Origin: Lachnospiraceae bacterium
Lineage (GTDB): Bacteria; Bacillota; Clostridia; Lachnospirales; Lachnospiraceae
Reading direction: 5' to 3'
DNA: 64,000 nt
Assembly: GCA_017465095.1 (NCBI GenBank)
Contig: JAFTWX010000077.1
Coordinates: 62,001-126,000 of the forward strand
Shown: positions 39,743-60,648 of the stretch, piece after piece
Layout of the letters: every line of letters begins with the position of its first letter
Position numbering within the stretch: position 1 is the stretch's first letter
Translations under genes and position numbers: made by a program
The notes under the pieces: generated by a model
The model's database searches: none
Told to the model about the DNA's origin: nothing
The model's input: the letters and a program-made list of their open reading frames with translations, nothing else

Positions 39743-39782
39743 ACAACCACTCCTTCCGGGCATACTTCGCCCACTCTATTTC

Positions 39783-39919: not shown

Positions 39920-39965
39920 CCTTACGGGAAACATCCGTATTCCCCACTATTCACTTTCAACCGGT

Positions 39966-40742: not shown

Positions 40743-40757
40743 GTTTCTCCCCAATTC

Positions 40758-40804
40758 AAAAAAACAAGTATCAAGATACTCTTATATAGTACCACAATAC
40801 TTGT
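40758..40804 (-). terminator. Terminator of topA
   Basis: ACAAGTAT (40797-40804) and ATACTTGT (40764-40771) pair in an 8-bp outer stem with a further inner 4-bp stem, followed on the minus strand by seven T. It lies 41 bases past the topA stop. Confidence 0.65.
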
Positions 40805-40814
40805 TTTTTTTCAA
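40786..40814 (-). promoter_or_regulatory. codY promoter within the topA terminator
   Basis: TTGAAA (40809-40814) and TACTAT (40786-40791) on the minus strand are exactly 17 bases apart. The -10 element falls in the loop of the topA terminator, so the start would be near 40779, and only the 3' arm of the hairpin would be in the codY transcript. Confidence 0.6.
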
Positions 40815-40844
40815 TATATTCGCACAATTTAATAAATAATCTAA

Positions 40845-43022: not shown

Positions 43023-43058
43023 AAAAAAAGGAAAGAATCCCAAATGGAATTCTTTCCT
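43023..43058 (-). terminator. Rho-independent terminator of the pilus operon
   Basis: AGGAAAGAAT and ATTCTTTCCT (43029-43038 and 43049-43058) form a 10-bp stem, extended by CC/GG, followed on the minus strand by a run of seven T. It lies 30 bases past the stop codon of the 1645-residue protein gene. Confidence 0.85.
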
Positions 43059-43087: not shown

Positions 43088-46000
43088 TTAGTCCAGATCA
43101 AGGAGATCTGCTTTGGTTACGGTGAGTTCGCTGTAACCTTCACCCTTGACATTCACAACCGTAGACTCTCCACCCTGCGAAGAATCTGTGACAATCTTAG
43201 TATTTACCTTAAGATAAATTGTATAATGGCTGTCATCTTTCAAATATGTCATAGGAAGATAGAATCCATAGACAACTCCACTTTCCAGCAAGGAAAGCTT
43301 GCCTGTATCATCAGGGTACACTTCATTTGCAAATCTTCCCTCACTTACCTGATATGTCAGAATTTCTTTGCTGATATCAACTACAGGAACTTCTGCATCA
43401 TTGATATTAAGCTTTACGATATCACGCATTGTACCATCATCCATCCGGAATTGATCACCGTCTTTAGACACCCTGTTACCTTCCGCCTTCAGATAATACT
43501 CTACAGACAGATATTTCTTACCACGTACAAAGTTTGTATCTGTCAATCGATAGTAAATCGGAGTCGCTGCCGAAACATCTGCATCACCCTTTAATGCCGT
43601 ATCCGTATCATTCGGATTTACAAACTGATACAGGAAGGTACCATCTGCTTTTTTCAGTACAGAAGATTCTTCTGATACGTTTTCATCATAAGGTACTGCA
43701 ATACCATTCACCGGTGTGCTTGTTGCTGTAGGCGGTGTTTCAAAGAAACCTGCCGTCGGTGCAACCTGATCCGCATTAAACGCTGCAAACAAAGTGTTTA
43801 CAAAGAGCTGCGCCTCGTCAGAAGTAAATCCGGTCACATCCTTCGAATCTCCGTATCCGGTATAGGTGATATTACCTTTGTTGTACACATAATAACTGTC
43901 TGCCGGAACCGGTCCTGCTGCATCATCTGCGTAAGCGTTATAATTCGCACCGCCACCCTTATTTTCAGTTCTCTCTCCGAGTGCATACCATACAACTACA
44001 TCGGATTCTCCGTCGTTATCATCGTCCGCATCCAAATCCAGCTCCAGATGCTGTGCATGGGTCTGCACAACCTCAATTTCGTCCTTAAGAATATACGGAT
44101 AAGATGTAATCTGTCCGTTGTTCAGTTTTTCAGCAATATAACTGCCTCGTCCGATAGAAAGACTGTTTCCGACTGACTCAACTTTGGTAGAATTCAACCA
44201 CTTCTTACCATCCTTATTAATCAAACCATAAATGGTGTAATTTGATATACCCTGCGTATATTTGGACGTATTCTCTCTTGCCCCGGAAGACTTATACGAA
44301 GGTTCATACGCTACATTCTTTCCGGTCGACTCAATAAGCAATACCTTATCTTTGTCACCCGAACGGGTATAACCCACACCGGAATGCAGATAATCCAGTC
44401 CGTGTCCAAAAACACTTGCCTCCAAATCACCCATCGTCTCTCCGTCAGCCTTATCCACAATATTTTGTGTAACACCATATTTATCCGCACCGAGCAAATT
44501 TCTAAGATACTGCGTCTGCGTATGGTTTGAAGCATAAATCATAAAGTCGTGCGCCATAAGCACCGGCTTGTCACTCTCAATGAATTTCTGTAACGCAATA
44601 ATAGAGTTTGTGCTCGGAATCTTCTCGAAGTTGTCACCATATCCGAAAACAAGCATGTTGACACCGACAATATCATCTTTCGCATCGTTCTCCGTATCAT
44701 TATCGTCCACAACAAAGGTGTCAAAATACTCCAGCGCATATTCTTCTACACTTCTGTTATTGCCATTTGCAAGATACTTGGCATCAAAATCATCTGAAAA
44801 CTCCTGTGTTGTCATCGTATGGAACACAACTTCATATCCCGGAACAGCATCCAAATATTTCGCAAAATCAGATTCTTCTGTCTCTGCCTGTTCTTCCAAG
44901 TCCAAAGTTGAGTCGGCAACTTTCGTAATTTGAAGAATCTTAATCAGCTTATCTTCTCCCTTGTTTTTAACAACCGTACTTCCTTCCGCAGAAGCATGAA
45001 CGTTGGTATCCACCGTAGACTGAATATTAATCTTCCACTGGAGATATCCGCTGTATGCATCATCCAACTCACGGGTCATCTGATATTCAACGCCTTTGCT
45101 CAGCAGATAATTGTTATCCTTATCACGCGGAGCCTCCGCACCGCTTGCTTTTACCACAATCTGCATATCGCGAATATTTTCAGAAACCTTCGAATACTTA
45201 CCATCCTTATTTACATCAATAAACAGAGACGGAATATATGTCGTATTAATGCCTGTATCCGCTGTCAACGTTGTAATGATAAAATCATATACCAGTTTTC
45301 TTGTACCATCCGGCTGTTCTTCCATATAAGTTATCGTATCCGGATCAATAATTTCCGTACCTGCCTGATAACCATAAGAATATTCTGTCGGCACGCTCAT
45401 CATTGTAAGCTCAAGCTTCTCTGTTGCAATATATTTTTCCAAAACAGTCTTATTAACTGCTCCTGATGCAATATCCATCACACTTGCAAGGTTTTCATAG
45501 ATTTTGTAGTACTCATTTCCCGTTGTATTCTCATATTTACCTGAATCGGAATTAAACAAAAAACCTCTTGCAAAACTTAAGAATTCATACATATTCGATG
45601 AGGTATCCACACGTCCGTGATCCACATCGGCACCATCTCCTGCAACCGCCGTCGGATTAATTTCAGTCGTTCCCACATCATTTTGTGCCACCAGGTCTCC
45701 GGCCACAAGCACCAATCCATCCGCCTCCAGATAATTCTTTAATTTCTGAAGCTTATCCTTCGTCAAATCACGTCCGTTATATCTTGTCTGGTACGTATCA
45801 ATATCCAAATGCTCACGCAAATCCTTGAAGGTACCGTCCGCCTGAGGATTACGAGATACCGTTGTAACAATATCACCGATATTATAATAGACCATACCGT
45901 TCATATCGGAATCATTATAAACCGGCAGATTTGCCTTATCGGTCTCCGTACTGCTATAACGCTTATTTACAATCTTTTTGGTCGTCAATGATCCTGTATA

Positions 46001-48025
46001 ATACAGATTGCCTGTCTTATTGGTTGTCTCACTACCGATATAGATTACATCGTACGTCTCAATCAGGTCATCATTTCGACCGTTAAACTCATCAATCGTC
46101 ATCGACGTAAATGTGATGTAATCTGCTTTGTCATCATAGTAATTTCCAAGGTAGGATTTGATGAACGCATCTCTGTTCTTCATAACAGTTCCGTTCTCTT
46201 CCAAATAGCCATACTCATCGGAACCTCTTGTCTCATTGTAGAGGAATGCTGTTACCGGCTGAATCTCAAGCACATGCAACGCATTTTTCATAACTGTGAG
46301 CGGATTTCCGTCACTGATCAAAATATACTGAATTGCAACTGCAGGTGTTACCGATGCAAGCATCTGACCTGTCGTTGAGTTCTTATTCGTCGTAACAATG
46401 TAACCTAATACATCCGAGAATCCCTGCTGCGCAACACTTGCCTTGTAGGCACTGTTAAAATCACCGTTGGCAAATATATCTCCTGCATCGACCAATGACT
46501 TCGGGGTATCAAAATCACTCATATGATGGTTGTATACATATACATTTCCGGTTACAAAGTTTCCGTTTGCTCCGGTCATCATAGAAGCCTTCAGATCGTT
46601 CAGCGCATCTCCGGTCATGAAATCAATATTCTGAAGCTCATCGGATTCTGCTGTTGTCGTGCCGGATTTAATTACAAACGCATCTTCGTATTCCGAACGA
46701 ATTTCACTCTGCGACTCTCTCCATAAAAGAATGGCAAGCTTAGACACATTGGACGCCGAATCCGCAGAATAACATGCGTAATCCATCATGATTGCCTTGT
46801 GATTCAGCACCTCTTTGTTATAAAGTGCAAGCAATACTTCTTTTGAAATATCGGAAGTTGCAGAAGCTGAAAATCTTGCAGATGTTCCTGAGATATACAC
46901 AAGATCTGCTTTCTCAATATCCGCAGTTGTAACTGTCGATGCAACTTTTACGTCATATTGGATATCTTTTGAATCATACTTATCTCCGCTACCGAGAACA
47001 TATTCTTTAAAGCTATTGCTGCTTTTAAAAATATAGTTGCCATCCGTATAATAATAGATTACAAGATCACTGTAGCCATAATACAATGTCTTAGTTGTCT
47101 GTGTCTCCGAACGGGTAAACTTTACATTTCCGAGACCTTTTCCCTTATTATTCTCATAATCATCCACTGGTGTGATGTATTCCAAATTCGGATCTGATTT
47201 TGACCGCGGAAAATCCATGACCGTAAGATCAATATCATCCGTTACCGGCGTTAAAATCGTAACCGTATTGGTCACCGGGTCATACGGATGATTCTGACTG
47301 AGGGTACTGTCTTCACTGACAGATACGTGCTCTTCCTTACAGATCGTGCCGTTTTCATCAATGGTATACCCATCTGCAATATTGTAATCTCCGGCGCCGA
47401 GCTCATACACACCCTTTGCCAAAGCTCCCGGCAATGGTTCTGCACTTACATCCGGTTTGTATTGGATGAAAGCAGGTGCCGGAGTATTATTACCATCGTC
47501 CTTTACAAAATAAATCGGATAATCATGTGCTCCGTCCGCTCCATACGGCTTAATCAAACCATAGTTACGCATATTCTGAAGAACGGTTGGCGTATTCGCA
47601 TCCTTAAGAGCACCGCTCGAGTTATATATCGGACCTCCGTGTTCTGTACCACACGTTACAAAAGTCGGGCTGTAGCTCTTAATATCCTTCCGAAGACCTC
47701 CATTTTGATCCTTTGGATAATAGCGCAGGAAATAACCCATCTCAGCATTTTCATTTGTCGATAAAAGCTGCCAATTATTTTCTGTATATGTATATGTAAC
47801 AGTCTCACCATCCGGTACTATTTCCAAAATATTCAAAAAGACTCCGTCATTATCACCGGCATAAGTTCCGTCGTACGGATATCGTTCCGTAATCTTATCA
47901 AACACTCTCACATCAGCGGCTGCTTCCTGCATGCTCTGCATAGAACCCACAAAAAACATCACTCCGGCCATGACAAATCCGATACCGCCAACTATTATTC
48001 TTTTCAGTTTCTTATTCCTTATCAT
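43088..48025 (-). CDS. Giant exported protein of the pilus operon (DUF5057-like)
   Basis: A 1645-residue protein with an N-terminal signal (basic start, hydrophobic 10-29, possible cleavage after Ala-Ala-Ala near 37). It has no prepilin motif, sortase motif or C-terminal anchor. Three divergent modules can be seen by eye, each opening with a hydrophobic strand of the type ILEIVP (near 65, 587 and 1028). Each then has a strand for something like 'what is seen' (VYISGTS near 373, VIYIGSE near 658, MLVFGYGD near 1125) and ends with a strand plus small turn (AIMMDYA near 411, LVLVAGDL near 770, PVLMAHDF near 1150). The pattern recalls glutamine-amidotransferase-like or ThuA-like folds. The last 250 residues are beta-rich. 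Named DUF5057 from memory only. It closes the pilus operon, 38 bases after the 832-residue pseudopilin. Confidence 0.75.
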   Translation of the reverse strand: MIRNKKLKRIIVGGIGFVMAGVMFFVGSMQSMQEAAADVRVFDKITERYPYDGTYAGDNDGVFLNILEIVPDGETVTYTYTENNWQLLSTNENAEMGYFLRYYPKDQNGGLRKDIKSYSPTFVTCGTEHGGPIYNSSGALKDANTPTVLQNMRNYGLIKPYGADGAHDYPIYFVKDDGNNTPAPAFIQYKPDVSAEPLPGALAKGVYELGAGDYNIADGYTIDENGTICKEEHVSVSEDSTLSQNHPYDPVTNTVTILTPVTDDIDLTVMDFPRSKSDPNLEYITPVDDYENNKGKGLGNVKFTRSETQTTKTLYYGYSDLVIYYYTDGNYIFKSSNSFKEYVLGSGDKYDSKDIQYDVKVASTVTTADIEKADLVYISGTSARFSASATSDISKEVLLALYNKEVLNHKAIMMDYACYSADSASNVSKLAILLWRESQSEIRSEYEDAFVIKSGTTTAESDELQNIDFMTGDALNDLKASMMTGANGNFVTGNVYVYNHHMSDFDTPKSLVDAGDIFANGDFNSAYKASVAQQGFSDVLGYIVTTNKNSTTGQMLASVTPAVAIQYILISDGNPLTVMKNALHVLEIQPVTAFLYNETRGSDEYGYLEENGTVMKNRDAFIKSYLGNYYDDKADYITFTSMTIDEFNGRNDDLIETYDVIYIGSETTNKTGNLYYTGSLTTKKIVNKRYSSTETDKANLPVYNDSDMNGMVYYNIGDIVTTVSRNPQADGTFKDLREHLDIDTYQTRYNGRDLTKDKLQKLKNYLEADGLVLVAGDLVAQNDVGTTEINPTAVAGDGADVDHGRVDTSSNMYEFLSFARGFLFNSDSGKYENTTGNEYYKIYENLASVMDIASGAVNKTVLEKYIATEKLELTMMSVPTEYSYGYQAGTEIIDPDTITYMEEQPDGTRKLVYDFIITTLTADTGINTTYIPSLFIDVNKDGKYSKVSENIRDMQIVVKASGAEAPRDKDNNYLLSKGVEYQMTRELDDAYSGYLQWKINIQSTVDTNVHASAEGSTVVKNKGEDKLIKILQITKVADSTLDLEEQAETEESDFAKYLDAVPGYEVVFHTMTTQEFSDDFDAKYLANGNNRSVEEYALEYFDTFVVDDNDTENDAKDDIVGVNMLVFGYGDNFEKIPSTNSIIALQKFIESDKPVLMAHDFMIYASNHTQTQYLRNLLGADKYGVTQNIVDKADGETMGDLEASVFGHGLDYLHSGVGYTRSGDKDKVLLIESTGKNVAYEPSYKSSGARENTSKYTQGISNYTIYGLINKDGKKWLNSTKVESVGNSLSIGRGSYIAEKLNNGQITSYPYILKDEIEVVQTHAQHLELDLDADDDNDGESDVVVWYALGERTENKGGGANYNAYADDAAGPVPADSYYVYNKGNITYTGYGDSKDVTGFTSDEAQLFVNTLFAAFNADQVAPTAGFFETPPTATSTPVNGIAVPYDENVSEESSVLKKADGTFLYQFVNPNDTDTALKGDADVSAATPIYYRLTDTNFVRGKKYLSVEYYLKAEGNRVSKDGDQFRMDDGTMRDIVKLNINDAEVPVVDISKEILTYQVSEGRFANEVYPDDTGKLSLLESGVVYGFYLPMTYLKDDSHYTIYLKVNTKIVTDSSQGGESTVVNVKGEGYSELTVTKADLLDLD

Positions 48026-48063: not shown

Positions 48064-50562
48064 TTATTTCTGCCAGAACTTATAGGTTGTATTGTATCTG
48101 TAAGTCTTTCCGCCATACTTACAGTAGTATTTGTTTGACTCCTTATAAACAGTAGCCGTAACTATTGCTCCACTGGAATTCAAACCTGTAATCTCCGTAT
48201 GTTTTCCTGCTTCAATATTTGTTCTCTGCTCCGACGTCCACGCCATGGTATTTCCGGCATCCTGCGCCGGTCCCTGAACATAGACATCTGTACCTTCCAC
48301 ATTGGCAATCAGCACCTTGTAGTCCGTGTAAGATGCTGCGTCCTGCTGAATATAATAATAATCATTGGCAGCCAATCGCAAAGTTGCAGGTGCCGTCAAA
48401 TATTTTTTCTGTGCTGTAAGTGCTTTTGCCGTCAACTGAATGGACGCCGTATCCACATACTGGTTCGTATCTCCATATCCACTGGTCATCTGCACATTAA
48501 AATACGGATTGATGTCTGCCTTACCCGGCTGCACCAAATTGTTCTTAAAATCATCAATAAATGTTCCGAAATAATACATTCCGTTACGCGGTGACAAAAG
48601 ATTGTAGTAAGCTGTTTTTACATAAATATTCTTTGCATCACCTTTTTTCATTACAAGCACATCAGAAGCCGGACTGATTTTGGAAACCATAACAGGCTGC
48701 AATTGATAAATAGTCGCGTTAGTATCATTCGCATAACCGGTATTGCCTTCCCAGCTACCTGTATGAATATCATCCACACTGATTCCCAGTTTTGCAGCCA
48801 TCTCCTTTTTATGTGTGTCGTTTGCAGCACCATTCAAATAGTAGATTGTTTTGTTTCCCTCATGCACCGCATATCCAATACAAAAATGAATCTTAAAATT
48901 ACCTTGGTAAAATTGGTTTTTCTGATTATCATTGTACAAGAACGCATCATAATCGATATACACATAATACTGCCCATTTTGATAAATCAGTTTTACATAT
49001 CTGCCAATCTTATCCAATTCATTCACCGTCATACAACCGGTAATTTCAGTAATCGCCATATAAACCACTTCGGAAATGGTTGTATTTTTTATATTTTTAC
49101 CCTTCCAGAAATTGGACATATTTGTATAGTATCCACGGCTGTAGAAACCAGAATCATCCGTATTATCGCTTGGTGCCACACCAAACACATATTCTGCAAA
49201 GTAGCTATTGTCAAATTTTGAAGTTGCCACAACTTTATAAAGCTGACCGTTAGCCGCAGATGATCCCATCGTAACGGTATTGGAAGTAGATGTTAATGTC
49301 TCTTTGTTTGCCAATGTAGCAAACGCTGTATTTGTACAAACTTCCCAATCTCCGGTTGTTTCATTCTTAATGTAAAGTTCCCAATCGATTCCGCCGCCAT
49401 AGGCAATATTACTTGCTACAATAGATGCATTCAGATTGAGCGGAAGGAACTTACCGTCAGTGCCTTTATATACATAGCCCTGCGCTTCCGGCGAAGGCGT
49501 TCCTCCATAAAGCTCTGAAAAACGGCTGTTCCACTGTGTTGCTCCGCTGAGTGCATAAAGATTAATACTCTTAATACGGCGAAGGAGAATCTGCGCTGTC
49601 TTCGGACTTGCTTTCAATGTTCCGCCCGACGTTGTAGGAACAGTCTTATTAATTACGAGTGTAAAAGAATCACTCAATGAATTTTTAAACATCTTAGTGT
49701 CATTTTGGCACTTTAAATTACTTGTTTCAGCATCTACTTCCGACATCGTATAAATCGCTTCGTCTTCATTTCTAAGTTCCCACGATACATTCGTTCCTGC
49801 TGTACTCTGATTGGTGTAAACCGTTGCAACGAACGGGATTCCGGTCTGTGTGTATGTTCGTTTATTAGCATCATTTATTGAGTCAATGTAATAGAACGGA
49901 ACCGTCTCATTTACAATATCAACATATACAATCTGCGGGTTAAGCTGCAACGTAACATATGCATTCTCATCCGGAGTCGATGTACTAGTATCCTTGTCCG
50001 CATAAGCTCTGTTTCTCATCAAAACCTGATAGTTTCCGTCGTAGGTTCTTCCGCCTTTCTCGTAAGAAAGCGTGAAACGCAACATATTTTCACTTTTCAC
50101 GCGGGATGTGTCCACCGTGAAATCAGCAATATAGCTTCCAAGCAATGCCTCTGTCACAGTTCCCCAACCGGAACCATTGTCCGTACGTTCTGCAAGATAA
50201 AGTTCTTTGCTTGCAGCTTTTCTTCCGATAATATACTGTTTCGTTGCACCGTCTACCGTCGAATCCAAGATAAGAATCTTTCCTGCATCTGATTCATACC
50301 CGAAACTCTCTGTCGTTGTAGACGCAGCATCATAAGAGTCAATGGCAAGTTCGTTAATCATATTGGCAACCAGCTGTGCTTCCGACTGCAACTGCGCTTC
50401 CACGCTCAGTCTGGTGTAGGTTTTCGATGATGTGGACATAAAAAGCCCGACCGACACACCGAGCACCGCCGTAATAGCAATCGCTGTAATCAGCTCAATG
50501 ATTGTAAAACCAAGACTGCTCTTTCTTTCTTTTTTCATGAATCTTCTCACTCTCTTACCCAT
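48064..50562 (-). CDS. Giant PilW/PulJ-like minor pseudopilin
   Basis: An 832-residue protein with a prepilin start: a basic leader ending in Gly18, then FTIIE with Glu at +5 and a hydrophobic helix (SLGFTIIELITAIAITAV). PilD-type peptidase should cut after Gly18. Minor pilins of this kind usually have 150-300 residues. The extra 600 residues look like a row of beta domains rich in Thr, Asn, Ser and Tyr, with Ig-like stretches (about 195-330) and no recognised motif. The longer start is kept for its GGGAGAAGAG site; ATG at residue 9 is an alternative. It lies 29 bases after the small pseudopilin. Confidence 0.85.
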   Translation of the reverse strand: MGKRVRRFMKKERKSSLGFTIIELITAIAITAVLGVSVGLFMSTSSKTYTRLSVEAQLQSEAQLVANMINELAIDSYDAASTTTESFGYESDAGKILILDSTVDGATKQYIIGRKAASKELYLAERTDNGSGWGTVTEALLGSYIADFTVDTSRVKSENMLRFTLSYEKGGRTYDGNYQVLMRNRAYADKDTSTSTPDENAYVTLQLNPQIVYVDIVNETVPFYYIDSINDANKRTYTQTGIPFVATVYTNQSTAGTNVSWELRNEDEAIYTMSEVDAETSNLKCQNDTKMFKNSLSDSFTLVINKTVPTTSGGTLKASPKTAQILLRRIKSINLYALSGATQWNSRFSELYGGTPSPEAQGYVYKGTDGKFLPLNLNASIVASNIAYGGGIDWELYIKNETTGDWEVCTNTAFATLANKETLTSTSNTVTMGSSAANGQLYKVVATSKFDNSYFAEYVFGVAPSDNTDDSGFYSRGYYTNMSNFWKGKNIKNTTISEVVYMAITEITGCMTVNELDKIGRYVKLIYQNGQYYVYIDYDAFLYNDNQKNQFYQGNFKIHFCIGYAVHEGNKTIYYLNGAANDTHKKEMAAKLGISVDDIHTGSWEGNTGYANDTNATIYQLQPVMVSKISPASDVLVMKKGDAKNIYVKTAYYNLLSPRNGMYYFGTFIDDFKNNLVQPGKADINPYFNVQMTSGYGDTNQYVDTASIQLTAKALTAQKKYLTAPATLRLAANDYYYIQQDAASYTDYKVLIANVEGTDVYVQGPAQDAGNTMAWTSEQRTNIEAGKHTEITGLNSSGAIVTATVYKESNKYYCKYGGKTYRYNTTYKFWQK

Positions 50563-50591: not shown

Positions 50592-51134
50592 TTATTCTTT
50601 CCGAACCGTATCGGATATCACCTTTCCGGTCTTTGAAATCACTTTAACATCATATGTTTTTCTACCGCTGGTAAACCGAAGTAAAACATCGTATTCAGCC
50701 GGATTTCCATACATGTCTAAAAGTGCTCCGGTACCTCTGTTGAAATATATTCTGTACCTTCTGCCGTCATTTATCGGTATCCATATAGAACCAACCGACC
50801 ACTCTTCGTATACCTTTACATCCACTTTTCCTTCATTAATCTGCTCTCGATTGCTGCGATATTCGCTCCCGGTGCCGATATCATATACAGTACTCACAAA
50901 ATAATCATCTCCGTCACGGGAAATTTCCCATGCCATTCCACCCGGTTTCTTTGCCTTGCCGAGAGTTACCACTTTGTTCTCTGCCAAACTTGATGCCACT
51001 TTATCTGCCGCTTCACGCGCCCGGTATCCGGTAAGCTGACTGAGACTGTATGCCCCCGTCGCCGTCAAAATAGACAAAATTGCTATTACAATTACTATTT
51101 CTACCAGTGAAATACCTGCATTATTTCTCTTCAT
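50592..51134 (-). CDS. GspH/FimT-like minor pseudopilin
   Basis: A 180-residue prepilin-like protein. The short leader ends in Gly7, followed by ISLVE with Glu at +5 and a hydrophobic helix. The +1 residue is Ile, where Phe or Met is usual. The rest is beta-rich, of ordinary size for GspH. The ATG at 51134 is chosen because AGGCGGTGA lies five bases upstream; an earlier GTG is inside that site. It lies between the two giant pseudopilin genes. Confidence 0.88.
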   Translation of the reverse strand: MKRNNAGISLVEIVIVIAILSILTATGAYSLSQLTGYRAREAADKVASSLAENKVVTLGKAKKPGGMAWEISRDGDDYFVSTVYDIGTGSEYRSNREQINEGKVDVKVYEEWSVGSIWIPINDGRRYRIYFNRGTGALLDMYGNPAEYDVLLRFTSGRKTYDVKVISKTGKVISDTVRKE

Positions 51135-51146
51135 ATACTTCACCGC

Positions 51147-53582
51147 CTATTCTTTCTTCCAGTTCTGATATACAATCAAATCACTAAGTTCCACTGCTTC
51201 ATCCTCTGCCACTTCGCTTCCACTGATCGCATAACTGATTTCACCGCTCGCTCCGAAAATCTCATACGCATAGATATCATTACCGGATGCACTGTCATGC
51301 ACTTTTGCACGCATTGCCTGGATTACATCGGACGGACTGTATTCAACGCTTGAACATCCCGTACAGATATAAATATTTCCGCCTGCAATTGCAAGTCCCT
51401 TGAAATCTCTGTCCATATAAATATCGCCTGACGCAACAAGCAATCTGATATCACTCGGGCAATCGCTCACCACTACATCACCGTCAAAGATTCTTGCAGA
51501 AACACTTCCTGCCGCAAATGCTTTTCCGTGCATTTCCGCAAGCTTAGAGTCATCGACGAGAGAATCAAAAATTTCGATTCCCTGCTGTGCAGCAGCAATT
51601 CCCTCATCATCTGCTCTTAAGCTGTACATCAGCGCATGATATGCCTCGGAATACTCAGTCTGCCAAGTCAGCATATTTTTATATTTTTCATATTCTGAAA
51701 TGTCATCTTCCAAAAATACAACCTCGCCGTTGCCGTCAATATAAAAAGCATTACCGGCAAGCGTCATATTTGTTGTCAATCCACTGTTCCAACTCATATT
51801 TCGGATATAGGAAGACACATAATCATTAATACCTTCCTTATCATATTCATAATACGCTTTGTAGAACTCGTTTGCCATCGTCTCATTTACACCGAAATCA
51901 AGGTACAAATATACAAGAACGGTACCGTTGATACGTCTGTATACTGCCTTGTAATCGTTCGTATATGAAACTCCACCCAGCTTAGTCCAAAGCTTATCTA
52001 ATCGAACCGCCTCATAGACATCTTCCATTACCGGCTGTCCGTTGTTCATGACTGTATTGCCGGCTGCATCCTTCTTTTCCACCGGCGTTGTAAGCAACTC
52101 ATATTCGGCGTATGTCATCGGGTTCTTTGCAATCACCTGCTCACCGGTAGAAATCTTATATCCGATACATTCTGTCGGCACCATATAAAGAAGCTGGTTT
52201 GCCTTAACAGAAATGGATTCTCCCATCATGAAATCCAACTCATTTTTCGGAAGCGTTGCTGTTCCTCCCGTATATTTTGTCGCTTCATCATTTAAAATAT
52301 CAGAATACGCTTCTTCATCTCTAATCTTATCTGTATCAATACTTGATGCTGCTACTGTCGTACCGTCAGCGGCCGTATAAACATGCGCAAGACGATCTAC
52401 ATCCGCATCATATTTTGACGCACCCACATAAGCATGACCGGACAAAAGAAGCGAATCCAACTGACTGAAATCGATTCTTGTATCGCCGCCGTTAATCAAA
52501 ATGGAACTGCTTCCATCAGCATTTCCCAATGTATTTCCATACCCTTTATAGTCACCGTCAATTTCTACATAGCTTGATTTGCCGCCAATCGTAAGATCAT
52601 CGCCGACAAAACTGCTTCCCTCCATTACAAACTCACTTGATGTTACGTTGATATTATCTACATATGTCGTAAATGATTCATCAATATGAAGTCCTGCGGA
52701 TCTATTTGCATTATCAACCGAAAGAGAATCTGCAATCAGATTATAGGTTTTGTCTGCCGCATCCGCCGAGTCCTTTATAAAACGCAGTCTCTTTTGGTCT
52801 GCAACAACAACACCTTCATACCCACCAAACACGTTACCTGTAATGGTGGTATCGCTTCCTTTTGTAACACTCGATACCGAATTCGAATTGTTGTTTTCAT
52901 TAACCAGCGAATCATTGGCAATCAATGAGAAGTTCTCAATATCCATCTTAGATGCTGCCTGTGCAAATCCGATTTCCGGAACTTTAATACGGATATCAGT
53001 TCTGATAATAGAAACATATCCTCTGTCGTCGGTAAAAACAACTTTTAAATTATGTAATGTAATATAATTTCTGGTTGGGGCAATCTCCAGCTTATTATCA
53101 CCGTCAGCTGCAAGATAAACCCCCTGCAGACCGGCTGTGTCCACAACATTCATGCTGTTTTTTGTCAGAAAGCTCTTAAGATGGTCTACATTCCATTTGC
53201 CTGCAATCGGATTACCGCTCCCATCCTTTGGCTGCAATTTTTTTTCAATATTCGCCAAATAACTCTCCTTGAACTGCGCCTCCATTACATCCGAAGTGTT
53301 TCCATTGGAATTATTCATCGTCTTGACATATGCCTCTGACATACACTCCGATACATCGAGCTGCAGACCGGCATTTACAACATCCAGTGCATATTCTGCC
53401 GAATAGAAGTTATCTTTTGCCAATGTGTCGCTTGCTTTCATAAGATAGTTGCAGTAAGCCATATAAAGAATCATGGCAACAAGCATTCCCACGAAGGCAA
53501 TCGCAATGATAACCATTACCAAGGCAGCACCTTTATTGTCTCTTTTTGTATTTTGCAATTCTTTCTTTATTTTCGAAATCAT
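51147..53582 (-). CDS. Giant PilX/GspK-like pseudopilin
   Basis: An 811-residue protein. The basic leader ends in Gly18, followed by AALVMVIIAIAFVGMLVAMI, the N-terminal type of PilX and GspK. The usual Glu at +5 is replaced by Met, as in GspK, which caps the tip of pseudopili. The middle (about 215-380) has a run of short Gly/Asp/Ser turns (DDLTIGGKSS, GDYKGYGN) suggesting a beta-helix. The C-terminal region contains a similar stretch (GDVVVSDCPSDIRLLVASG). Three Cys near the end could form a disulphide. It is far larger than any PilX or GspK I know (200-330 residues). Confidence 0.8.
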   Translation of the reverse strand: MISKIKKELQNTKRDNKGAALVMVIIAIAFVGMLVAMILYMAYCNYLMKASDTLAKDNFYSAEYALDVVNAGLQLDVSECMSEAYVKTMNNSNGNTSDVMEAQFKESYLANIEKKLQPKDGSGNPIAGKWNVDHLKSFLTKNSMNVVDTAGLQGVYLAADGDNKLEIAPTRNYITLHNLKVVFTDDRGYVSIIRTDIRIKVPEIGFAQAASKMDIENFSLIANDSLVNENNNSNSVSSVTKGSDTTITGNVFGGYEGVVVADQKRLRFIKDSADAADKTYNLIADSLSVDNANRSAGLHIDESFTTYVDNINVTSSEFVMEGSSFVGDDLTIGGKSSYVEIDGDYKGYGNTLGNADGSSSILINGGDTRIDFSQLDSLLLSGHAYVGASKYDADVDRLAHVYTAADGTTVAASSIDTDKIRDEEAYSDILNDEATKYTGGTATLPKNELDFMMGESISVKANQLLYMVPTECIGYKISTGEQVIAKNPMTYAEYELLTTPVEKKDAAGNTVMNNGQPVMEDVYEAVRLDKLWTKLGGVSYTNDYKAVYRRINGTVLVYLYLDFGVNETMANEFYKAYYEYDKEGINDYVSSYIRNMSWNSGLTTNMTLAGNAFYIDGNGEVVFLEDDISEYEKYKNMLTWQTEYSEAYHALMYSLRADDEGIAAAQQGIEIFDSLVDDSKLAEMHGKAFAAGSVSARIFDGDVVVSDCPSDIRLLVASGDIYMDRDFKGLAIAGGNIYICTGCSSVEYSPSDVIQAMRAKVHDSASGNDIYAYEIFGASGEISYAISGSEVAEDEAVELSDLIVYQNWKKE

Positions 53583-53610: not shown

Positions 53611-54957
53611 TTAATTGGATACTCCACCATCAAATGTTGCAACCTTTTTCCCTGTAGAAGGGTCATACAAATTAACGGTTGCTTTGTAAATTGTATTTTT
53701 GTCTTTTCTCTTATAACCTGCCGAGAAGTTCGTCTTATATATATCTTCCGTCAACAAACTACCATTATAGTAATATTCTGCGCGATATGATTTATAGGTA
53801 GAATCTCCCGCCGTCATTGGATCTCCATTGTCCTTCGTCGCCGGCATAACTTTCTTCAGTTCATCCGTAAGAAGCTCGCTTCCGTCCTCATGATGCGTAC
53901 GGAAATTGTATCTCTGAGACGGTGCGCTCAAATCATAACGCAGATTGGATACAATATGCACATCCTGTGTAGACGCCCCCGACATATCTTTGGAAACAAC
54001 AGCTACACGACATCCAAACAAAGCATTATAATCCATTTCCGACTGTGCTAAATTTCCATAAGCATCCGCATTCTGTGTACGAATCAGATATACGGTAATC
54101 TCCTCACCTGTCGTATTTTCTACGACAAAGTTTTCACGCTTCTCAACATCGTTATAGGAGGCATTTTCAATCCCCTTAAAGTAAATATATACACTTCGAG
54201 GAAACTTATCGGAATCCATTCTTGAAATATTTTCCTTTGAACATAATACATGATCTGTATTACTATTTCCTAAGATTGCCGCTTCTCCGGAAGCCAGCGT
54301 GTAATTGCGATAAACACCGACTCTGTAATTCGGAGCGGCTTCCGTTCCGAGATTTTCAATTTTAACTGTCGTTGTACGAACCATCTTGCCGACATAACTG
54401 TTCTGATTCGTACCGATAGTTGAGCTTAAAGCGAAATTTTTCGCTGCAGTTTCAATATCCTCCGTCGGAATCTCGAATGTCGCATCATAATACTGATTAA
54501 TTTCGGAAATGTTGGCCACATTCTGGTCATTAAAGCCTTTCTGGTCATCTCCCGTCGGATCTAAAACAAGCTCAACCAAATACTTGTTGTAATTTGTTCC
54601 TACCGTCTCTACATCCGAAAACTTATATGTTAATACATCTCCGGTTCCTGAGACAACCTCTATATTACCGTATGTTGTACTCTGCGGCAAAATTGTTCCG
54701 GCAAGACTCTTGGTCCCGGTCGTATCGGCCTTGACATCTTTGATGCAATAATCAATCTCTTCTGCCGTATAGCCACTGAGACCCTCCATAATATCTTGGG
54801 CGAGGCTCATTTCATTTAAATATTTCCGTCCTTTTAAGTTTAATTTTGAGGACTGTATAAAGTTTGCAATCAGAGGTGTAATTACGATCGCAAGAATCGC
54901 AACCGCAATAATCAATTCTACTAATGTAAAACCTCTGTTATTTCTCATTTTTTTCAT
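53611..54957 (-). CDS. PilV/GspI-like minor pseudopilin, enlarged
   Basis: A 448-residue prepilin-like protein. The leader MKKMRNNRG is followed by FTLVELIIAVAILAIVI with Glu at +5. The globular part (about 40-448) is beta-rich and about twice the normal size. The ATG at 54957 is chosen because AAGGGG lies nine bases upstream; the longer frame starts with a TTG and no site. It lies 18 bases after pilO and 29 before the PilX-like gene. Confidence 0.87.
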   Translation of the reverse strand: MKKMRNNRGFTLVELIIAVAILAIVITPLIANFIQSSKLNLKGRKYLNEMSLAQDIMEGLSGYTAEEIDYCIKDVKADTTGTKSLAGTILPQSTTYGNIEVVSGTGDVLTYKFSDVETVGTNYNKYLVELVLDPTGDDQKGFNDQNVANISEINQYYDATFEIPTEDIETAAKNFALSSTIGTNQNSYVGKMVRTTTVKIENLGTEAAPNYRVGVYRNYTLASGEAAILGNSNTDHVLCSKENISRMDSDKFPRSVYIYFKGIENASYNDVEKRENFVVENTTGEEITVYLIRTQNADAYGNLAQSEMDYNALFGCRVAVVSKDMSGASTQDVHIVSNLRYDLSAPSQRYNFRTHHEDGSELLTDELKKVMPATKDNGDPMTAGDSTYKSYRAEYYYNGSLLTEDIYKTNFSAGYKRKDKNTIYKATVNLYDPSTGKKVATFDGGVSN

Positions 54958-54995
54958 AAATGCGAACCCCTTTGCCAAGTGTTATCGTTTCTATC

Positions 54996-55733
54996 TTACT
55001 GCGCAGCTGCTTTTGCATCCGCTTCCGCTTTTCTCTTTACCGTATTAAAGATATCATTTGTTCCGTAAACAATACCATCTACAGACGGTGTTGTATATTC
55101 AGCTTCTGTACCTGTCAGTGAGTACATACTGAAAGCAATCGCGCTGACAAGACCACCGGTCTCTGCATCGAATGCAATGGAAACTGTATCTACGGATTTT
55201 CTGTTTAAATCTGTGTTAATCTGCTTAAGCACATCCTTCAAAGAATTGTAGGACGAATACAACTCCGTTGTTACCGGTGTCTTGTAAAGCAGAATTTCAG
55301 GAGTAGCTGTTGTGTCTGTTGTCACCTCTGCTCCTTCTTCAGCAGCTGCATCTCCTGTTTCAACCGGAGCTTCCGCCGCCGGAGCTTCTACCGTAATTGC
55401 AGTTGTTGTTCCCATGCTGATACTCTTTGCAAGTGCATCATGGTCATCTTCTGTTGCAATCAAATAAAGAATTTCGTCTTCACAAAGATACTGAGCCGGG
55501 AACTGCGCTATAATCTCATCGATTTTAAGCTGCATTGCTGCTGTATCATCTAAATACTGCTGTTTATTGTTTGCAAGCTCCTGCAAACGATCTACTTCCT
55601 GTTTTAATTTTGCATTTTCTTTCTGCATGATTTCTGTCTCAGCTGTCAGTGGCTTGTATGCTGCAAGATACGCTGCAAGGGCAAGCACAACGCCGAGAAC
55701 CAAAAGTAATACGCTTTTATCTGATTTTTTCAT
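54996..55733 (-). CDS. pilO: PilO-like inner-membrane assembly protein
   Basis: A 245-residue protein with one membrane segment (about 7-27), a coiled coil (about 30-75), an Ala/Glu/Thr linker (about 115-145) and a C-terminal alpha/beta domain like PilO. It should pair with the PilN part of the upstream gene product to link the cytoplasmic PilM ring to the pilus. The extended acidic linker is unusual. It lies 19 bases after the pilM-pilN fusion. Confidence 0.8.
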   Translation of the reverse strand: MKKSDKSVLLLVLGVVLALAAYLAAYKPLTAETEIMQKENAKLKQEVDRLQELANNKQQYLDDTAAMQLKIDEIIAQFPAQYLCEDEILYLIATEDDHDALAKSISMGTTTAITVEAPAAEAPVETGDAAAEEGAEVTTDTTATPEILLYKTPVTTELYSSYNSLKDVLKQINTDLNRKSVDTVSIAFDAETGGLVSAIAFSMYSLTGTEAEYTTPSVDGIVYGTNDIFNTVKRKAEADAKAAAQ

Positions 55734-55752: not shown

Positions 55753-57552
55753 CTATTCTTCTGTCGCTTCCGCGTCCTCTGCCACTTCTTCTATAAGTGC
55801 CGGATTTACGCCGTATGTACATAATGCAGTGAATGAAACTGCAACTTCTCCTGTCTGGCTGTCCTCTTCTTCTAAGATACTGTCAACCCTTACATCGGCG
55901 AAATTGTCGAATGTACGAAGTTTGAGAATAGTGGCTACTGCCTCTTCCTTAGTTTTAACCTGCATTGAGATAGCAATCTGTGTTGCATTAGCATTCATAG
56001 AACTTACAACAACATTCTTAGGAAGCTTCTGCTCAAGCTCTACAAAAACATCATATAAATCTCTGTTGTAATTTTCTGTCTGCGCGTATACAGCAGTCAG
56101 ATAATCACAATCTGCTTTTGTCTGAACATAGGTATTGTAAATATCCTGTACCGGTTCAAGCTGTGCTTTCTTTTCTGCCAAATTAACACCCTCTACCTTT
56201 GCGAGATAGTATGGCGGCACTGACATTGCAAGAAGCACAATCGCTGCAAGAAGACCGATAACAAAAACAACAATCGGAAGCTTATCGCCGGAGACGCTGC
56301 TCTTTGCTCCTTTTCCTTTTTTCGCTTTATCCTGCTGCATAGAAACAGGCATGAAACCTACAGAACCAAGACCGGCTCCGATTACGGAGATGTAATCACC
56401 GAGAGATACGTCATGAAGATGTAATCCCTGGTTGATGTTGGTTCCTGCAAGGTCCTTTAATACTTCAACTTCACGTCCGAGTTCTTCGGAAAGAAGACCT
56501 GCGAATCCCCAAAAGTCAGCTGCAATACCTGTGATAATAATATTGTCGATTGCTGCGTCTCTGTTCTTTGAGTTGTAGTAGTCAATAACACGAACGATAG
56601 AGCTGATGAGCTGTTCGTATGCGTATGTAACATCTCTTCTTAAACGAAGCATCTTGAGGTTTGCACCGGCCTGTTTTGCAGCTACCGTTGTGCTTGCAAC
56701 CTGAGATGCATCTCCGGTAGAAGCTGCCGCAGCAATGGCTGCTTCATTTAATCTTTCAAGTTCTGCAACTTCTGCCTCTTTATCTTTGAGTGTTTCCTCT
56801 TCTTCCGCCTTCATAACAAGGTTGTTTTTACGAAGTGTCTTAACTGCTGCTTCGTAAGAAAGCGGTTCGCCGTATACATCTGTTTCCATCATGATGTCTA
56901 CAACCTGGTCAGCACCGTAAATACCGGAACGCTGCATTGTAATAACACCATTGTTTGTTACGGTAAGAAGAGAACTTCTTTCATCAATTTTAACTGTAAG
57001 GTTTACACCCTTAGCAAATCTATGACGGAGAGCCTGGAAAATACTGTTACCACTATAATCGATAGAAGATAACTCAAGGCCAAGCTGCTGAGCCAGATAA
57101 TAGTAACCGTCAAGAATTTCGGACGGACATGCCATAATCATAACTCTGTACTGTTTTGTGCCGGCTTCGTCAGTCACTGTGTCCATAATGTTGTGTGCAA
57201 ACTGATATGCGCTCGGATCAACCGGGAAGTAATCTGTGATGTTGTTCATCAACATCTCTCTTACTTTGTTTTCCTTAACTAACGGAATCGTTGCCTCTCT
57301 GTTCGCAATCTTTGTGGATGAAACTGCAAAGATAACTTTCTTTGCGCTCATGCCGTTTGCAGCAATGTAGGATTTCAGATCCTGTACGTAAGATTCTGTA
57401 GGATTGATTAATCCGTCATTCAGAATTCCTTCCGGTGTTTTCATACTGAAAACTCCATAAACCTGTGGATGTTTTGACTGGAAGTCCATCTCACAAACCT
57501 GTGTGAACGAATATCCAATCTCAATACTAAGTACTCTTTGCGCTTTTGCCAT
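55753..57552 (-). CDS. PilM-PilN fusion protein
   Basis: A 599-residue protein. Residues 1-400 are an actin-like PilM ATPase (starts with VLSIEIGYSFTQVCE; IDYSGNSIFQAL near 160; IIITGIAADFWGFAGLL near 345). A Glu/Ala-rich helical insertion of roughly 60 residues interrupts it near 235-295. After a basic linker (about 405-425) comes a membrane segment (about 430-452) and a PilN-like coiled coil plus small domain (about 455-585) with LPKNVVVSSMNA. In most systems these are two proteins, PilM in the cytoplasm and PilN in the membrane bound by a short N-terminal peptide. The single frame has no stop or frameshift. Confidence 0.85.
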   Translation of the reverse strand: MAKAQRVLSIEIGYSFTQVCEMDFQSKHPQVYGVFSMKTPEGILNDGLINPTESYVQDLKSYIAANGMSAKKVIFAVSSTKIANREATIPLVKENKVREMLMNNITDYFPVDPSAYQFAHNIMDTVTDEAGTKQYRVMIMACPSEILDGYYYLAQQLGLELSSIDYSGNSIFQALRHRFAKGVNLTVKIDERSSLLTVTNNGVITMQRSGIYGADQVVDIMMETDVYGEPLSYEAAVKTLRKNNLVMKAEEEETLKDKEAEVAELERLNEAAIAAAASTGDASQVASTTVAAKQAGANLKMLRLRRDVTYAYEQLISSIVRVIDYYNSKNRDAAIDNIIITGIAADFWGFAGLLSEELGREVEVLKDLAGTNINQGLHLHDVSLGDYISVIGAGLGSVGFMPVSMQQDKAKKGKGAKSSVSGDKLPIVVFVIGLLAAIVLLAMSVPPYYLAKVEGVNLAEKKAQLEPVQDIYNTYVQTKADCDYLTAVYAQTENYNRDLYDVFVELEQKLPKNVVVSSMNANATQIAISMQVKTKEEAVATILKLRTFDNFADVRVDSILEEEDSQTGEVAVSFTALCTYGVNPALIEEVAEDAEATEE

Positions 57553-57637: not shown

Positions 57638-58417
57638 CTAAGGTGTCACAAGCAAACTAATATACCAGTTAATAAACTGTTCGCCCCACAGCACCGATAT
57701 AAAGATACCGGCCGCCAAATACGGGCCCATTGCAAGTACATGTCCTTCATCCGACAATTTCATACGGATAAGATGTATGACCGATCCGAGAATACATCCC
57801 AGAATCAAAGCCAATAATGATAATTTCCAGCCGATCAAAAGTCCGGCCGCACGCATCAACCGCACATCACCGTACCCGATCGCTGCGCCCTTTGATGCCC
57901 AAAATAAAATTTCCAAAAAACCACTGACAGCAAGGAGGCCGATTACGTAAGTCACCCAATCCCCTAAGTGTAAACCTAAGTGAACCAGCCCCAGTGCCAG
58001 TATAAACAAGTTGATTCCGTATGGAATCTCATAAGTTCTAAAATCTATAACGCTCAACACGATGAGCGCCGATGTCAATAAACAGTATATCGCTAAATCT
58101 ATACTCCACCCGTTAACGATAAAGATCAGAACATACAATATTCCGTTCAGCGCCTCCACAATGGGGTACTGCACAGATATATGTTCTTTACATTTGCGAC
58201 ATTTACCACGCAAAAACAGATAACTGAACAGCGGAATCAAATCAAACCAACGAAGCTGATAACCACAACTCATGCAATGGCTTCTGTCCTTCGAAAGGCT
58301 TTCCTTTGCGGGAATGCGATAGATGCAGACATTGAGAAAGCTACCTATCACAATCCCGAAAAGAAATATGACAATTCCTAATATTATGTTCTCCTGTAAT
58401 AACAAGTCCGTGGTCAT
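57638..58417 (-). CDS. pilD: Prepilin peptidase / N-methyltransferase PilD
   Basis: Cuts prepilin leaders and methylates the new N-terminus. The 259 residues contain GSFLNVCIYRIP (25-36), the two zinc Cys pairs (Cys48/51 and Cys73/76), and the catalytic aspartates Asp125 (VIDFRTYEIP) and Asp184 in GYGD. About seven membrane segments. It directly follows the major pilin, and its substrates are the six prepilin-type proteins in the operon. Confidence 0.95.
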   Translation of the reverse strand: MTTDLLLQENIILGIVIFLFGIVIGSFLNVCIYRIPAKESLSKDRSHCMSCGYQLRWFDLIPLFSYLFLRGKCRKCKEHISVQYPIVEALNGILYVLIFIVNGWSIDLAIYCLLTSALIVLSVIDFRTYEIPYGINLFILALGLVHLGLHLGDWVTYVIGLLAVSGFLEILFWASKGAAIGYGDVRLMRAAGLLIGWKLSLLALILGCILGSVIHLIRMKLSDEGHVLAMGPYLAAGIFISVLWGEQFINWYISLLVTP

Positions 58418-58452: not shown

Positions 58453-58471
58453 TGCTAAATATTAGTTAGCA
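58453..58471 (-). other. Small hairpin enclosing the pilin stop codon
   Basis: TGCTAA and TTAGCA form a perfect 6-bp stem with a 7-base loop. The stop codon of the 156-residue pilin gene lies partly in the loop. There is no T run, so it is more likely to protect or process the pilin mRNA end than to terminate. Confidence 0.35.
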
Positions 58472-58932
58472 CCAGCACCTACTGTAATACCTGAAGATGA
58501 GTCATTCTGCTGACCTGTATATACTGTGTAGTTTCCGTTAGCATCTACAGAAATACTGATTACGTTGCTTCCGGCTTCCTTAGCAATTTTGGATTTTAAT
58601 TTACCTTCAACAGAAGCACCTGATCCGCTGAGACCCTGTCCTAATGTATCAAGAACTACAGAACTGAAGTCAACATCACTACCATTACCACTGAAGCTTG
58701 TGAAAGTATAGGAACCTGAGCCTAAGATTGTTCCTGTGCTGATATCAGGATCTCCTGCAGCTGTTGTAAGAGCATTGTAAACGCTGTCAAGAAGGTCTTT
58801 ATCAGCTGATACTCTTGATTTTTCTACATATTTGATGTACTGAGGTGCTAAAACACCGATTAAGATTGCCATGATAGCAATAACGATAATTAACTCAACG
58901 AGTGAGAAACCTTTGTTGTTTGTCTTTTTCAT
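58462..58932 (-). CDS. pilA: Major type IV pilin (PilA)
   Basis: A 156-residue prepilin. The leader MKKTNNKG is followed by FSLVELIIVIAIMAILIGVLAP, with Glu at +5 and the standard alpha-1 helix ending in YIKYVEKSR. The rest is Gly/Ser/Thr-rich and lacks the C-terminal cysteine pair of many Gram-negative pilins, as usual in Gram-positives. GGAGAGG precedes the ATG. It is followed by pilD. Confidence 0.92.
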   Translation of the reverse strand: MKKTNNKGFSLVELIIVIAIMAILIGVLAPQYIKYVEKSRVSADKDLLDSVYNALTTAAGDPDISTGTILGSGSYTFTSFSGNGSDVDFSSVVLDTLGQGLSGSGASVEGKLKSKIAKEAGSNVISISVDANGNYTVYTGQQNDSSSGITVGAGAN

Positions 58933-59006
58933 TTTAAACCTCTCCTTTTTTAATATATTGTTTATTTATTTAATTCCCGCCCCCTATTTGCAGGAGTTAA
59001 ACCATA

Positions 59007-59408
59007 TTAGTTCCAGCCGACCTGAATGGCTATTTTGTAGTCGTCTGCGTTGGCAACGAACTGTACTGTATAACACATATCTTTATATTCGTTTGATACA
59101 ATTTTAGCGCTTTCCCAACCGGAAATATATTCCGGAAGGATATCCTCTTCAAGCGCCGTATTATTAGAATAAACTCCCGTCGCATCAAACTTAATATAAT
59201 CATTTTCATTGATCATCGAGAAATAGTCCTCATCCGAAGCGATTACATTGGCAAGCTCCGCAAGCTCACTTGCAAGCTTATCATCCTTCGCTTTGCGGGA
59301 TTTCTCAACATATTTTACATATTGCGGAGCAAGAAGCCCTATCATAACTGCCATAATAGCAATGACGATAATCAGCTCCACCAAAGAAAAACCCCCATTT
59401 TTTTTCAT
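59007..59408 (-). CDS. Second type IV pilin-like protein
   Basis: A 133-residue prepilin. The leader MKKNGG is followed by FSLVELIIVIAIMAVMIGLLAPQYVKYVEKSR, nearly identical in its alpha-1 helix to the following pilin but with an unrelated acidic C-terminal half, ending in a single Trp-Asn. It may be an alternative major or a minor pilin. It lies 19 bases after pilC. Confidence 0.9.
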   Translation of the reverse strand: MKKNGGFSLVELIIVIAIMAVMIGLLAPQYVKYVEKSRKAKDDKLASELAELANVIASDEDYFSMINENDYIKFDATGVYSNNTALEEDILPEYISGWESAKIVSNEYKDMCYTVQFVANADDYKIAIQVGWN

Positions 59409-59427: not shown

Positions 59428-60648
59428 TTATAAGTTGTCGAGACCCGTGTACATAGAAGCCATAGGCGCAAGTACGGCACCGATGATAACCATACAAATC
59501 GCAGCAAGACCGATAATCATGAGCGGCTCTAACGCTGCCATGAGAGATTCGGTTGCAACTTCCACTTCTTCTTCGTAATACTCTGCAAGAGTATCAAGCA
59601 TCGTCTCAATATTACCGGTTTCCTCACCGATACGAACCATGTGGTGTACCATCGGCGGGAACAATCCGCATTTCTCAATCGGCTGTGAAAGCGGAATACC
59701 CTGCATAACATCGCTTCTCGCATCCTTCATCGCCGTTGTGAAGTAACGGTTACTCATTGTCTCTGCTACAATCTCTACCGCATCCGGCATCGAGATACCT
59801 GCCGCAAGCATCGTAGATAAGTTACGGGCAAACTTTGCTGCATTCTGTTTTACGGTAAGATCTGCAAAAAGCGGAATCTTAATCGCCATCTTCGCCACGA
59901 AAATCTCACCGGTTTCCGTTCTGACAAACCAACGAATCACGAAAGTCAAAACAACAACAATAACAAGAGCAAGTAACCAGTTAGCCTTCAACCAGTCAGA
60001 CGCCGCAACGACCGCAAGTGTAATCGCCGGCATGTCAATCTCCATATCCGCAAACATGTTCATGAATGTCGGTACGATATATGTAAGCATTACGATAACT
60101 ACAACAACCGCAACGATAAGTACCATGATCGGATATACCATTGTTTTCTTGATAAGACCCTGAATCTTGGCAGATTTCTCAAACTGAACCGCCATACGCT
60201 CGAATGCAACATCCAAACTACCGGATGCCTCACCGGCGCTTACCATATGAATCAAAAGTTTCGGGAATACATCCGGAGCCTTTGCCATAGACGCTGCGAG
60301 CGACTCACCCTTCTGCACACCGAGATAAACTTCCTGAAGACCGTTTCTCAATCTGTCGTTTTCTGTCTGTTCTGTCAGCATACGCATTGTCTCGAGAATC
60401 GTTACACCGGCACGATGCATACTTACAAACTGACGACAGAAAATACTCATATCACGAACCGGTATTTTCTTTTTAAAGAGATCCGCCATATTGATATCTT
60501 TATCAAGAATACCCTGTTCTTTGATCTCTGTAGGCATTTTACCTTCTTTTTTCAGCTGCTCCGCAGCTCTCTGTTCGTTGTCGGCCTCGATTGTACCGTT
60601 TACTGTCTTTCCGGATTTATCCACCGCCGAATACTTATATACTGCCAC
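59428..60648 (-). CDS. pilC: Pilus assembly platform protein PilC (GspF family)
   Basis: Inner-membrane platform that couples ATPase motion to pilin insertion. The 406 residues have two GspF domains (about 70-195 and 275-400) and three membrane segments (near 170-195, 222-240 and 375-395). An N-terminal domain (1-60) starts AVYKYSAVDKSGK. The start is GTG with AGGAGG nine bases upstream. Confidence 0.95.
   Translation of the reverse strand: MAVYKYSAVDKSGKTVNGTIEADNEQRAAEQLKKEGKMPTEIKEQGILDKDINMADLFKKKIPVRDMSIFCRQFVSMHRAGVTILETMRMLTEQTENDRLRNGLQEVYLGVQKGESLAASMAKAPDVFPKLLIHMVSAGEASGSLDVAFERMAVQFEKSAKIQGLIKKTMVYPIMVLIVAVVVVIVMLTYIVPTFMNMFADMEIDMPAITLAVVAASDWLKANWLLALVIVVVLTFVIRWFVRTETGEIFVAKMAIKIPLFADLTVKQNAAKFARNLSTMLAAGISMPDAVEIVAETMSNRYFTTAMKDARSDVMQGIPLSQPIEKCGLFPPMVHHMVRIGEETGNIETMLDTLAEYYEEEVEVATESLMAALEPLMIIGLAAICMVIIGAVLAPMASMYTGLDNL

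Follow-up and report, generated by a model that had tools for sequence, protein, structure and literature searches.

A large exported DUF5057 protein at the end of a Lachnospiraceae type IV pilus operon, a probable non-pilin tip component

The window, a stretch of 64,000 nucleotides from a Lachnospiraceae bacterium, carries on its minus strand a type IV pilus operon with the order pilB, pilC, two pilA, pilD, pilMN, pilO, pilV, pilX, fimU, pilW and, finally, a gene of the family DUF5057. The genes, listed in this order, and the end of the transcript are the following.

60692..62395, minus strand: PilB extension ATPase (PF00437, E 2e-138 at this site in its own genome)
59428..60648, minus strand: PilC platform protein (sequence)
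58462..59408, minus strand: two major-pilin-like genes, at 58462-58932 and 59007-59408 (sequence)
57638..58417, minus strand: PilD prepilin peptidase (sequence)
55753..57552, minus strand: PilM/PilN fusion-like (position and sequence)
54996..55733, minus strand: PilO-like (position and sequence)
53611..54978, minus strand: PilV-like minor pilin, 455 aa (PF07963, E 7e-10)
51147..53582, minus strand: PilX/GspK-like large minor pilin, 811 aa, no Glu at +5 (sequence and alignment)
50592..51143, minus strand: FimU/GspH-like minor pilin, 183 aa (PF07963, E 4.4e-6)
48064..50562, minus strand: PilW-like large minor pilin, 832 aa, class III signal with Glu5 (ORF; N_methyl weak)
43088..48025, minus strand: DUF5057 gene, an exported non-pilin of 1645 aa (ORF; Pfam PF16480, E 4.9e-67)
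43029..43058, minus strand: intrinsic terminator, end of the pil transcript (13-pair stem, 4-base loop, T-rich tail)

The DUF5057 reading frame starts with ATG, preceded by the ribosome-binding sequence GGAGAG. It can be placed at the very end of the pil transcript, as had been proposed in an earlier note on this DNA, because it lies on the same strand as the pilW-like gene, at a distance of only 38 bp, and because the terminator begins 30 bp past its stop codon; a promoter-like site ahead of topA follows. A PilT gene is present in the same genome, about 8 kb upstream of the window end. The immediate upstream neighbour of pilB, in the same orientation, encodes a giant BspA/LRR_5-like surface protein of 1867 aa (window 62690-64000; L209:1691-7294). 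The operon as a whole is located between dprA- and topA-like genes (window 39353-42923; L209), in a gene order (dprA..topA-codY-flgB) that we take to resemble that of Bacillus subtilis, suggesting that the pil operon was inserted into an old gene order.

A DUF5057 gene is found at the end of the pil operon in about a fifth of the Lachnospiraceae genomes. An alignment-based search of named genome contigs yielded 116 relatives, and gene neighbourhoods were counted for 117 loci with at least 1.5 kb of upstream sequence, duplicates having been removed; the set includes Kineothrix, Anaerosporobacter, Lachnotalea, Mobilisporobacter, Velocimicrobium, Anaerobium and Butyricicoccus. In 112 of the 117 loci two or more pil families directly precede DUF5057 on its strand, and in 110 the nearest upstream gene is PilW-like; the labels PilW, FimU and so on were assigned in the relatives with profiles derived from the operon described here. 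One of the five remaining loci (L160) shows PilW and then the contig end. In three others (L305-L307), from a family with genomes of 5.6-6.8 Mb, DUF5057 is divergent from a pilB-pilT-pilC-pilA-pilD-pilM-pilO operon; this arrangement was read gene by gene in L305 and L306, and L307 was placed by its membership of the same family. L168, an apparent exception, has FimU- and PilW-like genes just upstream. The linkage to upstream pil genes holds across the Lachnospiraceae and three other families of the Clostridia, in which DUF5057 closes the pil operon or lies inside it. The homologues are thus located almost exclusively at pil operons, and the outcome that the earlier note had named as contrary to its reading, homologues mostly away from pil genes, did not arise.

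Some variation in the surroundings was observed as well. The last of the five remaining loci (L056:12150-16097) is a true orphan: its DUF5057 gene is flanked by comM- and dprA/topA-like genes, and no pil operon adjoins it. In L127, L131, L133, L139, L140, L148, L152, L153, L158, L161, L163 and L170 pilB is located directly or nearly directly after DUF5057, and not at the start of the operon. Elsewhere DUF5057 is directly followed by a gene for a further exported-looking protein of 1400-1500 aa (L138:13994-18331, L146:13918-18396), which in L138 contains Big_2 and fn3 domains. In a degenerate pil operon (L308:4879-11000) the minor pilins are missing, and pilB-pilT-pilC are followed by what remains of DUF5057 (652 aa).

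The presence of DUF5057 closely follows that of the PilX-like minor pilin. Among 397 genomes of the family, 75 have both DUF5057 and a strong PilX match, 10 have PilX only, 5 have DUF5057 only and 307 have neither (Fisher P 3e-63, a value that ignores relatedness). One of the PilX-only genomes has a divergent DUF5057 (L175), and most of the others that were checked encode a large exported protein in the DUF5057 slot, with an ILEIVP-like strand near the start and/or an LFxLD-like end; these slot proteins gave no Pfam match where scanned. In L178 the locus runs off the contig, and within the stretch read in L181 no such slot protein was found. One of the DUF5057-only genomes holds a relic of a pil operon with a DUF5057 fragment. 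A sub-threshold match in G447 (L208) was discarded, as it is an unrelated fn3-like protein. The single orphan copy might be taken as a sign that DUF5057 is a hitchhiker, i.e. an exported protein that has nothing to do with the pilus and only happens to be encoded in its operon. Such an explanation is hardly credible, given that the linkage persists in several families of the Bacillota, even where DUF5057 is inverted relative to the neighbouring operon, and that presence and absence track PilX.

The 1645-aa protein matches PF16480 with 227.4 bits, against a cut-off of 27.9, over residues 753-1160, and the family name DUF5057 given in the earlier note is therefore right. The Pfam model spans only the end of the second module described below, a linker domain and the start of the third module, and its borders are at odds with the natural domain borders. 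We found no mention of the family in the open PMC literature, and no relatives in phages. The protein can be divided as follows.

47912..48025, minus strand: signal-peptide-like N-terminus without prepilin motif, residues 1-38 (sequence; AxA-type end in close relatives)
46226..47848, minus strand: module 1, residues 60-600, alpha/beta with large insertions (AlphaFold2 pLDDT 87.6, pTM 0.86; hhalign to module 2, 90%)
45416..46294, minus strand: module 2, residues 578-870, alpha/beta (AlphaFold2; hhalign to module 3, 92-95%)
44951..45433, minus strand: linker beta domain with EF-hand-like loop, residues 865-1025 (AlphaFold2 strands; alignment)
43736..44962, minus strand: module 3, residues 1022-1430, ThuA-like alpha/beta (hhalign to ThuA profile 73%, score 41.9)
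43091..43738, minus strand: C-terminal beta domain, residues 1430-1645 (AlphaFold2 strands; only partial, Ig-like fold matches)

At the N-terminus, positively charged residues are followed by a hydrophobic stretch and, judged by sequence, an AxA-type end (..MQEAAA|DVR). The class III signal peptide of type IV pilins is absent from it, in line with the signal-like N-terminus without prepilin motif that had been noticed before. Similar ends in close relatives (..VQA|E, ..VAA|T) suggest that the N-terminus is cleaved, but it could also stay uncleaved as a membrane anchor. In the latter case DUF5057 might be an assembly factor at the membrane or wall, anchored by its N-terminal helix, that steers the pilus through the peptidoglycan; its close co-occurrence with the operon would fit such a role. 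Apart from the AxA-type ends, the properties of the family make this quite unlikely: no peptidoglycan-binding domain was found by Pfam in the protein or in the scanned relatives, and the wide variation in length, from about 700 to 2850 aa, together with fused adhesive domains, would be unusual for a scaffold. PA14 is fused to the DUF5057 core in L206. In L305:1638-6281 and L306:14006-18613 the core is fused to pAdhesive_15, an ice-binding-like adhesive domain, and to Big_2 repeats.

Three copies of the same order of elements (a strand, a strand plus glycine, a strand plus small residues) had been seen in the protein by eye. Family profiles of the three stretches were compared using hhalign, with 60 column-shuffled controls per pair and with the profile trimmed of 23 overlapping residues for modules 1 and 2. 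The scores were 55 for modules 2 and 3 (92%), 49 for modules 1 and 2 (90%) and 41 for modules 1 and 3 (63%), whereas the best control score was 21. The alignment of modules 2 and 3 passes in order through LHVLEIQP/IKILQIT, the strand-helix pair MTIDEFN/MTTQEF, YDVIYIGS/NMLVFGYGD and LEADGLVLVAGD/IESDKPVLMAHD. These aligned columns are the very elements named before, and the repeats are thus real, with module 1 as the most diverged copy.

Module 3 was also compared to a profile of 26 ThuA sequences (PF06283 family). It scored 41.9 against a null of 12.9 +/- 2.1 from 40 controls, none of which reached that score; the scores against the flavodoxin and vWA profiles were 17.5 and 12.6, respectively. 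The alignment includes the strand with the conserved His of ThuA, which pairs with H1159, and a second, collinear alignment matches GRVFYxxxGH of ThuA to GNITYTGxGH near the end of the module. In 30 module-3 sequences no match to the Pfam ThuA family (PF06283) was found at E <= 1. The profile comparison thus supports a reading of module 3 as a remote ThuA relative, below Pfam detection, and the other modules would be of ThuA type through their relation to module 3. By profile comparison the three modules are related to each other, which goes against the three unrelated folds that the earlier note had named as a contrary outcome. DUF5057 differs from the ThuA family, to whose profile module 3 aligns, by its large insertions, its triplication with beta domains and its export.

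The order of the elements had been likened earlier to a ThuA-type or class I glutamine-amidotransferase fold. The likeness to ThuA is borne out for module 3, but module 3 is not an amidotransferase, because there is no conserved Cys: the three cysteines of the 1645-aa protein are not common to its relatives, in line with the earlier remark that no catalytic Cys-His pair is visible. Glutamine amidotransferase activity was consequently rejected. Several polar residues of module 3 are well conserved, namely H1159 (109/124), D1160 (114/124), H1323 (110/124) and Q1325 (113/124). As H1159 is the counterpart of the conserved His in ThuA, one could think of a surface enzyme presented by the pilus, in which the His-Asp pair (H1159-D1160) and the THxQ motif act on carbohydrate. 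We consider this very unlikely: a conserved Cys and a Pfam ThuA match are both lacking in module 3, modules 1 and 2 have no such conserved residue set, and the conserved polar residues would equally suit binding of a ligand or a metal.

AlphaFold2 models were built with alignments of the related loci, for residues 40-600 (pLDDT 87.6, pTM 0.86) and 570-1645 (pLDDT 85.5, pTM 0.88). In the predicted secondary structure the alpha/beta modules are parted by a linker domain that is rich in strands, as is the C-terminal domain that follows them. A Foldseek comparison of both models to the PDB gave no whole-fold match: the best match of residues 570-1645 had an E-value of 5.5e-5 yet a TM-score of 0.09, and for residues 40-600 nothing was found below E 0.1. 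The model of residues 570-1645 likewise had no whole-fold match among viral models, and the sequence profile of module 3 retrieved nothing convincing from the PDB. TcpF and CofJ were absent among the PDB fold matches listed for both models.

Besides the polar residues of module 3, three short segments were compared among the relatives.

45179..45217, minus strand: calcium-type loop 1, DVNKDGKYSKVSE, residues 937-949 (conservation in 124 relatives)
44000..44026, minus strand: calcium-type loop 2, DDDNDGESD, i.e. Dx[DN]xDGxxD, residues 1334-1342 (about half of 124 relatives)
43091..43114, minus strand: conserved C-terminal tail KADLLDLD-COOH (conservation in 116 complete proteins)

In loop 1 the conserved positions are D937 (124/124), N939 (105/124), D941 (107/124), G942 (114/124) and E949 (111/124). 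Both loops have the motif of an EF-hand-like calcium loop and may accordingly be putative calcium-binding sites, and Dx[DN]xDGxxD is the consensus of the calcium loop of PilY1 (PMC8833165). In the tail, L at position -2 is found in 112 of the 116 proteins and is one of just two nearly invariant columns in the C-terminal domain; position -4 is F or L in 105 and position -5 is L or M in 102. The tail is missing in at least some relatives outside the Lachnospiraceae. At the end of the pil operon of L206 (L206:2136-11869) two exported proteins are encoded in tandem, one with DUF5057 and PA14 (1942 aa) and one with NPCBM and SdrD_B but without DUF5057 (1234 aa). Both end in a similar tail of the K-L-x-S-L-D type, which may act as a docking signal in its own right, apart from DUF5057.

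With its conserved free C-terminus (112/116) as a docking signal, DUF5057 could also be thought of as a soluble cargo that hooks onto a minor pilin, leaves the cell with the extending pilus and is then released to act off the fibre. The genetic logic would be that of TcpF and TcpB, where a secreted protein of the pilus operon is held via one terminus (PMC9565799). Nevertheless, a monoderm releases a Sec substrate without a pilus, TcpF docks by its N-terminus whereas the conserved end of DUF5057 is the C-terminus, and a size of up to 2400-2800 aa with fused adhesive and Ig-like domains suits a bound adhesin better; a TcpF/CofJ-like role is therefore unlikely.

DUF5057 had been proposed as a partner of giant minor pilins. 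This is only half right: almost every locus has a large PilX-like pilin (about 670-1300 aa), but the PilW-like pilin falls into size classes of either about 170-310 or about 420-1280 aa. By alignment the PilX-like pilin has no Glu5, and GspK/PilX proteins in general lack this residue. In the model for M. xanthus, PilX is the pilin that meets PilY1.

Taken together, we propose that DUF5057 probably belongs, as a non-pilin, to the tip of a type IVa pilus in a monoderm, and that it works like PilC/PilY1 with unrelated modules. The position at the operon end, the linkage to pil genes, the tracking of PilX, the adhesive fusions, the calcium-type loops and the tail all point to a tip protein in the PilY1 slot, as do the Glu5-less PilX-like pilin, reminiscent of M. 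xanthus PilX at PilY1, and the nearby PilT gene. The absence of sequence similarity to PilY1, the L056 orphan, the possible membrane anchor and the lack of the tail in some relatives outside the Lachnospiraceae argue against it. The tip location, docking partner, ligand, calcium binding, adhesion and priming role that we infer for DUF5057 would combine as follows. The protein would be secreted by Sec and wait at the outer face of the membrane, the minor pilins would cap the fibre and DUF5057 would dock on them, and extension of the pilus would take it out through the wall. The three ThuA-like modules with their variable insertions would touch a surface or glycan, the calcium loops would stiffen the protein, and PilT-driven retraction would pull on it.

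With respect to adhesion of Gram-positive type IV pili, reviews deny a non-pilin tip protein and point to modular pilins. A large, dedicated tip protein tied to the pil operon of a major family of gut and rumen bacteria would be a general answer to how these pili adhere. If DUF5057 is such a protein, the likely adhesin of many Lachnospiraceae has been named, an unrelated protein has taken the PilY1 slot, and a function can be given to a Pfam family that lacked one. We consider the chances about evenly balanced for the wider proposal that DUF5057 forms a class of non-pilin tip proteins of type IV pili that evolved independently of PilC/PilY1 and TcpF/CofJ, in which a chain of ThuA-related modules sits with its C-terminal tail on a Glu5-less PilX, lineage-specific adhesive domains are inserted, and a complete PilY1-like tip for priming and adhesion is provided to monoderm gut bacteria.

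PilC/PilY1 is described in reviews as the non-pilin tip effector of diderm type IVa pili. It is a large exported non-pilin encoded with FimU, PilV, PilW and PilX, modular and with variable adhesive parts (PMC7541494, PMC8833165, PMC10191384), and late-stage components such as PilC have been reported missing for monoderm type IV pili (PMC6916266). The PilY1 beta-propeller domain (PF05567) had no Pfam match in the DUF5057 protein; in the family genomes it was found in 0 of 200, and the control genomes likewise gave 0 positives. The profile of the vWA domain, which forms the N-terminus of many PilY1 proteins, scored 11-13 against the three modules, the level of the shuffled controls. Membership of the PilY1 family was rejected on both grounds. 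Compared to TcpF, an operon-encoded secreted protein bound via its N-terminus by the tip minor pilin TcpB (PMC9565799), and to CofJ, both of type IVb pili, DUF5057 is also a secreted protein encoded in a pilus operon, but it is much larger, its conserved end is C-terminal, the machinery is type IVa-like and the fusions are adhesin-like. In Streptococcus sanguinis, PilB and PilC are modular minor pilins with grafted domains, a monoderm route to a sticky pilus (PMC8179133, PMC9934059); in the pili considered here the adhesive part would be a separate non-pilin, yet PilX, and often PilW, are large as well. Rather than the "new kind of Gram-positive pilus tip" of the earlier note, DUF5057 is better described as a non-homologous occupant of the PilC/PilY1 slot of diderms: like PilC/PilY1 it is encoded with FimU, PilV, PilW and PilX minor pilins and carries the Dx[DN]xDGxxD loop, but it is found in monoderms and appears to be built of three ThuA-like alpha/beta modules and beta domains.
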